Origin: Methanosarcina acetivorans C2A
GTDB taxonomy: Archaea > Halobacteriota > Methanosarcinia > Methanosarcinales > Methanosarcinaceae
Direction: 5' to 3'
Assembly (NCBI RefSeq): GCF_000007345.1
Contig: NC_003552.1
Location: forward strand, 3,782,001 to 3,846,000
Length of the DNA stretch: 64,000 nucleotides
Below are positions 1 to 47,696 of this stretch, in pieces. The notes under the pieces were generated by a model, which was given only the letters and a program-made list of their open reading frames with translations, ran no database searches and was not told the DNA's origin. The translations under genes and the position numbers were made by a program. Every line of letters begins with the position of its first letter. The first letter of the stretch is position 1.

Positions 1-415
1 GGGCGTGACAGCAGACGACCAGATCGTAATTCTTCGCATATGCTGCCGCATCCACCTCCTGCCAAGTCTGCGGGATTACATCGATGTTAGAAAGTCCCCT
101 TTCCTGTGCAGATGACATAAGTGCTGCTGCCATCCTCTCTGCAGGTTCGACCGCAGTCACCCTGCTCACCCTCTCTGCAAAAGGGATCGTTATTGCACCC
201 GGCCCGGATGCAATATCAAGAACATGCCAATCTTTTTTCAGCAACCCTTCCCGTTCAAACAGGCCGAGGATATTCCGGCCGTGATTACAATCACTTGCCA
301 GAACCATATCTGAATAATCCTCCGCCCGCCGGTTCCAGTAACTCGTATTGGAAAGCCGATTCATCTCACCGATGCCTTCAGCCCAGACTGTCTCCCAGTC
401 GATCCGTAAAGTCAT
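1..415 (-). CDS. SAM-dependent methyltransferase, class I (3' part off the window)
   Basis: The frame reads leftward from an ATG at 415-413 and is open to the window edge, giving 138 codons of the N-terminal part. A ribosome binding site (GGATGAGGT) precedes the ATG. The sequence VLDIASGPGAIT near residue 70 is motif I of class I (Rossmann) S-adenosylmethionine methyltransferases; VTAVEPAERM about 20 residues later fits motif II with the acidic residue that binds the ribose. The substrate cannot be told. It is divergent from the ABC importer at 562, so the two may share control, but a functional link is only inference. The rest of the gene lies outside the window. Confidence 0.8.
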   Translation of the reverse strand, partial: MTLRIDWETVWAEGIGEMNRLSNTSYWNRRAEDYSDMVLASDCNHGRNILGLFEREGLLKKDWHVLDIASGPGAITIPFAERVSRVTAVEPAERMAAALMSSAQERGLSNIDVIPQTWQEVDAAAYAKNYDLVVCCHA

Positions 416-46046: not shown

Positions 46047-46274
46047 TCATTCGTGGCTGTGGATATGGAAAAGCCCTTCTTTTGCTTTGCTAAGGAGCTC
46101 GTTTGCTTCCTCAACTTTGCTGGCAGCCTCAAGGATATCTTCGGAGGCTTCGAGAAAACCGTCTTTTTTGGCTTTCTGAGCCCATTCTTTAAAACTCTGT
46201 ATGTGACTTTCGTTATGTTCGATCCAGTGCTCAATTAGATGGGAAAGGTTGTCGTGACTAAGCTCTTCAGTTAT
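46047..46274 (-). CDS. Small His-rich helical protein, 75 aa, apparent AUA start
   Basis: On the minus strand GGAGG (46287-46283) is followed 8 bases later by ATA at 46274, from which the frame reads ITEELSHDNLSHLIEHWIEH onward to TGA at 46049-46047. No ATG, GTG or TTG lies in frame between the upstream stop and this point. The product looks like two amphipathic helices, with His12, His16, His20 and His24 spaced by four and a C-terminal HIHSHE. It may bind metal. Either AUA starts translation, or the normal start was lost. Family not recognised. Confidence 0.62.
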   Translation of the reverse strand: MTEELSHDNLSHLIEHWIEHNESHIQSFKEWAQKAKKDGFLEASEDILEAASKVEEANELLSKAKEGLFHIHSHE

Positions 46275-46365
46275 AGTTATTCCCTCCTGCTTTAGAATAT
46301 AGAATTCATGGTATAAATTTTAGCTGGATTTAAGATGAATTTTCATATTGTTGATACGGAAAAGG

Positions 46366-46454: not shown

Positions 46455-47696
46455 TCAAACTGTCCTCGGATCGGTGATTTCTCCTGTCAGGGCCGAGGCT
46501 GCTGCAGTTGCTGGAGATGCAAGATAAATAAAACCGCCTTTTCCCATCCTGCCTTTGAAGTTCCTGTTTGCGGTTGAAACGCAGACCTCGCCTTCTCCGA
46601 GCACCCCCTGATGGGCACCGAGGCAGGGTCCGCAGCCCGGGGTTGCAAGGGTTACCCCGGCTTTCAGCAGAGTTTCCATTGTCCCGTTTTCGATTGCTGC
46701 AAGGAGGGTGGTGCGAGAGGCAGGGATCACAATTGTCCTGACTGCAACCTGTTTTCCTTTCAGGACTGCTGCTGCGACCTCGAGGTCTTCAAGCCTGCCG
46801 TTCGTGCACGTCCCGATAAAGACCTGGTCTACATGAGTGCCTTCAACCTCTCCTACGGGCTTTACATTATCCACCTGATGCGGGCAGGCAACCTGGGGTT
46901 CGATATCGTCGGCATCATAAGTGAACTCTTCCAGATAAACAGCATCCGGGTCGGCATAGACAGGTTCATAAGTAGCTGCTGCCCTGTTTTTCAGGAACTC
47001 GAAGGTCTTTTCGTCCGGAGGGACGATCCCGGTCTTTGCGCCCATCTCAATTGCCATATTGCAGAGCGTCATCCTGCCAGCAACCGTAAGTTCGCGGATT
47101 GCCTGCCCGTAAAACTCAACTGCTTTATAGGTCGCCCCGGCAATTCCGGTCTTTCCGATCAGGTAAAGAGTCAGATCCTTTGCATAGACCCCTTTCCGAA
47201 GGCTCCCTTCAACCGTCATCCTGAAGCTTTCCGGAACCTTAAACCAGAGTTTTCCCGTAGCAAAGATTTCAGCCATATCGGTAGCCCCTACCCCTGTTGC
47301 AAAAGCTCCAAAAGCCCCGTACGTGCAGGAATGCGAATCAGCCCCAACAACCAGCTTTCCGGGCAATGCAAAACCGTTTTCCGGAAGGACCTGGTGACAG
47401 ATCCCTTCCCCGACCTCATAGAAGTTAGGGATCCCCTGCTCCTTTACCCATTCCCTGATCTCTCTCTGCAGGGTGGCTGAGGTCTCATTATTCGCAGGCG
47501 CGATGTGGTCAAAGGGGACTACGATCCTTGAAGGGTCCCAGACCTTTTCCATCTCCATTTCCTTAAAAGCATTCACGGCAAGTACCGATGTGCCGTCATG
47601 CGCCATTGCATAGTCCACATCTGCCAGCACAAAATCGTTAGCTTTTGCCTCTGTTCCCGCTGCCCGGGAAAAGATTTTCTCGCTGATTGTTCCCAG
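46455..47696 (-). CDS. 3-isopropylmalate dehydratase / homoaconitase large subunit (LeuC family)
   Basis: Aconitase-superfamily large subunit holding a [4Fe-4S] cluster. Cluster cysteines are visible in [12 protein letters not shown] and [33 protein letters not shown] is the catalytic region. About 414 aa, as in archaeal LeuC/HacA proteins acting in leucine synthesis or the coenzyme B 2-oxosuberate pathway; the sequence does not choose. AGGAGG is followed 7 bases later by CTG at 47696, giving [14 protein letters not shown], the family N-terminus; the only other start is a TTG at 47729 without a ribosome binding site. The small subunit is not in the window. Confidence 0.9.

Follow-up and report, generated by a model that had tools for sequence, protein, structure and literature searches.

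Start codons of the AUU, AUC and AUA type are used in bacteria, the textbook example being infC, which encodes translation factor IF3. In 2010, Baudet et al. reportedly detected non-canonical start codons by proteogenomics in Deinococcus deserti. For the archaea, a review of translation initiation gives the start codons as AUG, GUG and UUG (PMC7531240), and the discrimination between start codons, a task of IF3 in bacteria, is expected to be performed by aIF1 (PMC6237735). A ribosome profiling study of Methanosarcina mazei reported starts of sORFs at ATG, GTG, TTG and CTG only, a result that speaks neither for nor against AUH starts (PMC11456600).

Here we describe a gene of Methanosarcina acetivorans C2A, located in a stretch of 64,000 nucleotides (the window), that very probably is translated from a near-cognate start codon, as judged from comparative sequence data. 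The gene resembles infC in having a start codon with a third-base mismatch behind a strong Shine-Dalgarno (SD) sequence, an arrangement conserved across relatives. It differs from infC in being archaeal, in being one of several unrelated genes of the same apparent kind in its genome and in the interchange of AUA and AUU between species. No direct autoregulation is evident, since the gene does not encode an initiation factor. The likeness to Deinococcus deserti is that several genes of one prokaryote appear to start at codons other than ATG, GTG or TTG; that case is bacterial and proteogenomic, whereas the evidence presented here is comparative.

Organization of the locus

The annotated features are listed in Table 1. 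A sequence-only reading of this DNA had noted a GGAGG at the proper distance before an ATA, and both elements were found in that arrangement on the minus strand, with a gap of 8 nt between the GGAGG and the ATA. Translation from the ATA gives the 75-residue protein that it had described, with histidines at positions 12, 16, 20 and 24 and the tail HIHSHE; with methionine initiation at this codon the predicted N-terminus is (M)TEELSHDNLSHLIEHWIEHNESHIQSFK. Its statement that a standard start codon is absent also holds, as there is no in-frame ATG, GTG or TTG from the upstream in-frame stop to the end of the gene. From the usual archaeal distance between TATA box and transcript start, the leader would be about 15 nt long.

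Table 1. Features of the ATA-initiated gene and its upstream neighbour (window coordinates).
Feature	Position	Strand	Remarks
Aconitase-family (hacA/leuC-type) gene, upstream neighbour	46455..47696	-	PF00330; context only
TATA box TTTATA	46312..46317	-	5' end at -43/-42/-41 from the start codon in 27/29 distinct Methanosarcina sequences
Predicted transcript start	near 46290	-	About 26 nt downstream of the TATA box, the usual archaeal TATA-TSS distance
Shine-Dalgarno GGAGGG	46282..46287	-	GGAGG 7 or 8 nt from the start codon in 27/29 sequences
ATA, near-cognate start codon (predicted)	46272..46274	-	ATT/ATA/ATC/ATG/GTG/ACG in the genus alignment; coding constraint begins here
75-aa CDS including stop	46047..46274	-	Predicted helical hairpin, helices 7-37 and 41-73
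Signature HWIEHNESH, residues 16-24	46203..46229	-	H16, W17, H20 and H24 invariant; proposed metal site
His-rich tail HIHSHE, residues 70-75	46050..46067	-	Length differs among species
Stop codon TGA	46049-46047	-	

A AATCCAGCGGGA-like block lies immediately 5' of the TATA box (46318-46332, minus strand) and is kept genus-wide; it is possibly a BRE or the site of a regulator. No tRNA was found within the 64-kb window, and an Rfam search returned a single match that was sub-threshold and irrelevant. A sigma-70 promoter scan was discarded as inapplicable to archaea.

The upstream neighbour hacA starts with TTG in 35 of 36 related loci, so start codons near the gene under study do not drift freely. 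The exception is the window genome, in which hacA opens with CTG (47694-47696, minus strand; AAAGGAGG-7 nt-CTG). As a functional partner hacA was rejected, the pairing being confined to Methanosarcinaceae: the neighbours vary by lineage, and other genes occupy this place in Methanothrix and Deltaproteobacteria.

Conservation of the start codon

The sequence-only reading had proposed a search for homologues in other Methanosarcina, and the gene was found in 30 of the 31 genomes of the genus as well as in other Methanosarcinaceae, Methanothrix and Deltaproteobacteria. None of the homologues pointed to an opening elsewhere in a different frame; the start site is the same throughout. Among the 29 distinct genus sequences, the aligned first codon is ATT in thirteen, ATA in nine, ATG in four and ATC, GTG and ACG in one each, all 29 being AUG or one base away from it. 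The positions of the TATA box and the SD sequence are likewise fixed across the genus. Most Methanosarcinaceae outside Methanosarcina have ATG or TTG at this same site. In-frame ATG, GTG and TTG are absent altogether from the window genome and six close relatives, and a seventh close relative has no canonical start before residue 75. The locus thus combines a conserved coding frame lacking a usable canonical start with a codon one base from AUG that stands at an SD-appropriate distance and is conserved in relatives.

On a tree of hacA, the basal clade carries ATG and the other 26 sampled rows are mostly near-cognate, ATG or GTG having been regained three times; the distribution can be explained by no more than four changes between the canonical and near-cognate states. 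Because it is spread on this tree over the genus apart from the basal clade, the near-cognate start is old. The alternative suggestion of a recent ATG-to-ATA loss is therefore refuted; ATG, for which the reading had proposed to check the relatives, is present in the basal clade and lacking in most of the remaining genus. We also give next to no credence to a decaying gene that has lost its ATG. The window genome alone, with no canonical start, would fit such decay, but the frame is intact at every genus locus examined, pN/pS across the genus is about 0.15, and the deepest divisions of the genus, its basal clade aside, are spanned by near-cognate codons.

The position of the start can be narrowed by the pattern of substitution. 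Over all pairs, pN/pS was 0.18 for codons 2-12 and 0.14 for codons 13-71, as against 0.87 for the 12 in-frame codons upstream of the ATN, and the upstream frame is interrupted by stops or frame-shifting indels in many species. By this measure the coding constraint begins exactly at the ATN codon. An internal start at codon 13, which would turn the first 12 codons into a leader, has in its favour a TTG at that codon in 20 of the 29 sequences. It is nevertheless very unlikely, as in-frame ATG, GTG and TTG are missing altogether from seven genomes, that of the window included, codons 2-12 are as protein-constrained as the rest, and the SD sequence sits ahead of codon 1.

A further alternative is that the frame is entered by reinitiation or frameshifting from an upstream ATG, which opens a short ORF (ATGAAT...) between the TATA box and the SD sequence, the ATA being only a second element. 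Most species do have an ATG in another frame 35 nt upstream, and in some of them the ORF that it opens stops immediately ahead of the ATN. However, this ATG lies 2 nt past the TATA box and should therefore precede the transcript start; it is replaced by TTG in two species (L027 and L028), and the stop of its ORF varies from before the SD sequence to beyond the ATN. A reinitiating ribosome would moreover still need a start codon, which would be the ATN again, and we consider this route quite unlikely. Initiation at the near-cognate codon itself is the reading that we retain. The rare AUA start that had been proposed is strongly supported by the conserved near-cognate codons, the SD spacing and the coding boundary at the ATN, and it is from this comparison that we infer actual initiation at the ATA.

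Near-cognate starts elsewhere in the genome

Within the surrounding 400 kb, no other ORF of at least 60 codons has GGAGG-(5..8)-ATH and lacks an in-frame canonical start, and ten Markov simulations with the same criteria gave 0.1 such ORFs on average. A comparison of this 400 kb with a close relative yielded 223 conserved ORFs once overlaps had been removed; among those flagged, the gene was the only clear case in which both species lack a canonical start and have an SD sequence with a near-cognate codon.

A total of 2.0 Mb of the genome was then scanned in stretches for coding-like ORFs behind GGAGG at 7 or 8 nt that have no in-frame canonical start upstream or within the next 11 codons. Matches with poor coding scores were set aside; a match at 3852287 is doubtful. 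Eight ORFs were found and all eight have a near-cognate codon at the start position (three ATT, two ATA and one each of ATC, CTG and ACG), compared with 96 ORFs that have ATG, GTG or TTG in the same SD context. Near-cognates make up 13% of the eligible triplets, which puts the chance of eight out of eight at 9e-8, rising to 7e-7 when the window gene is left out. The set includes Cas1b, a MazE/PhoU-domain protein, an M28 peptidase and a NosD/PKD surface protein.

The Cas1b ORF (G000:C1:4527129, minus strand; L312:6131-7129) has ATC 7 nt past the GGAGG, and positions 2-324 of the Cas1b profile align to residues 4-333 of the ORF read from this ATC. In the MazE/AbrB-PhoU domain protein (G000:C1:3859133, plus strand; L119:11133-12134) the codon at 7 nt is ATT, and in the M28 peptidase ORF (G000:C1:3979957, plus strand; L125:11957-13216), which has no in-frame ATG, GTG or TTG ahead of codon 100, it is ACG. 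Two coding-like ORFs of no clear family, at G000:C1:4586995 (minus strand) and 611696 (plus strand), have ATA and CTG respectively, again 7 nt past the GGAGG. The NosD/PKD surface proteins (G000:C1:396260, minus strand; L232-L239) show ATT at 7-8 nt and a signal-peptide-like N-terminus; an in-frame ATG upstream in some of the paralogues makes this case less clean.

A second genus-wide case was found in a gene of the DUF2111 family (PF09884; G000:C1:5476097, minus strand), where GGGGGTGAAAAC is followed by ATT. The two genes encode unrelated proteins and share a genus-conserved near-cognate start, which in this gene is ATT behind GGGGGTGA. Of the 30 genus loci (L202-L231), 29 have the ATT at the aligned start, in two cases with a TAA immediately before it, and the remaining locus has ATT as the next codon. 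All four loci of the sister genus (L262-L265) also have ATT, and several other Methanosarcinaceae genera have ATG at this site. Since the window gene begins at AUA or AUU in most species of the genus, archaeal ribosomes appear to start at these codons on purpose.

The encoded protein and its likeness to CooJ

Neither Pfam nor NCBIfam has a family for the protein or its relatives. AlphaFold predicts a helical hairpin with a mean pLDDT of 90.9, and the only PDB matches that Foldseek returned are helical hairpins of a generic kind, rubrerythrin halves among them. In 44 diverse relatives, residues H16, W17, I18, E19, H20, N21, S23 and H24 are invariant (HWIEHN-x-SH). Of the His ladder, only H16, H20 and H24 are invariant in the family; H12 is common in Methanosarcinaceae and not elsewhere. 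Metal binding, which had been suggested from the ladder, is well motivated as a candidate function by three invariant histidines at i, i+4 and i+8, which share one face of helix 1, together with the invariant tryptophan. Some genomes have more than one member of the family, either two or three, of which one is divergent (L160 in G314:C164, and G060, G072, G118, G432 and G481).

The same spacing is seen in HWXXHXXXH, which we take to be the Ni site of CooJ. CooJ is a nickel accessory protein of the CO dehydrogenase (CODH) of Rhodospirillum rubrum (PDB 6hk5; PMC6006190). Both proteins are small and have H-[WF]-x2-H-x3-H with identical spacing in the N-terminal helix and an association with Ni-CODH. 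A profile search of the PDB listed CooJ (6hk5_B) with AHFLDHVEGH under KHWIEHNESH at E 0.4-0.9, which is not significant (0.89 and 0.42, and absent with profile A2). More histidines follow towards the C-terminus, 16 in the His-rich region of CooJ and three in the tail HIHSHE, which is absent or shorter in many relatives. The family also differs in its distribution, which is archaeal and deltaproteobacterial, and in not lying in a coo operon, with hacA and others as neighbours and the CODH matches elsewhere. As significant homology and operon linkage were both tested and not found, we did not file the family as a member of CooJ.

Co-occurrence with CO dehydrogenase

The family is present in 117 of the 296 archaeal genomes of the phylum, and all 117 have cdhA, whereas it is found in none of the 133 archaeal genomes that are cdhA-negative (these counts ignore kinship). 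Genomes with MCR and without CODH lack it entirely (0/55), as opposed to 39 of 51 with CODH and without MCR; MCR/F430 is ruled out as partner by this phyletic pattern. In one bacterial phylum, bacterial-type CODH was found in 58 of the 76 family positives and archaeal-type CdhA in 10 of the other 18, making the association weaker there at 68 of 76, with eight positives that showed no CODH.

From this co-occurrence the candidate metal can be narrowed to nickel and its candidate user to CODH. We rate a CooJ-like nickel/CODH role of the protein at roughly even odds. A little short of even stand the other functions taken together, namely a metal for non-CODH use, or a structural or interaction hairpin whose His cluster has another role. 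They would fit the fact that family genes do not adjoin CODH genes and have different neighbours in different lineages, as well as the 46 archaeal CODH-positive genomes without the family and the eight bacterial positives without CODH. The absence of the family from CODH-negative archaea and its contrasting distribution over the MCR and CODH classes argue against them.

Discussion

In the mechanism that we propose, the TATA promoter would make a transcript with a short leader, on which the strong SD sequence would bring the AUA into the ribosomal P site. The initiator tRNA would be accepted despite the mismatch at the third position. The codon would be AUA in the window genome, with AUU in its place in the second main branch of the genus, and AUU, AUA, AUC, CUG and ACG are apparently used behind a strong SD sequence in several other genes of this genome. 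It is plausible that the near-cognate codon keeps the putative expression low, as had been suggested for AUA. The product would be a short antiparallel helical hairpin carrying H-W-x2-H-x3-H on helix 1. With a CooJ-like role it would most likely bind Ni(II) and serve CO dehydrogenase/acetyl-CoA synthase, both the nickel binding and the part in CODH being inferred.

A wider proposal can be made only tentatively, and we hold it to be rather less than probable. Routine initiation in Methanosarcinaceae may extend to AUU, AUA, AUC, CUG and ACG where a strong SD sequence precedes them, each genome having tens of such genes. These starts would form a conserved class, low in expression or controlled by a factor (aIF1), that annotation misses or truncates; the window gene would in addition be the archaeal counterpart of CooJ.

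Two or more unrelated genes with an AUH start conserved genus-wide, together with the eight near-cognates out of eight in a blind scan, would extend the set of archaeal start codons. Near-cognate starts would also account for the failure of gene finders to detect such genes or to give them their full length. The window gene and its kin may serve as natural reporters for start-codon discrimination by aIF1 in a genetically tractable methanogen. Should the protein truly be a nickel chaperone, it would be a candidate for a missing accessory factor of archaeal CODH/ACS, the enzyme of acetate-based methane formation.
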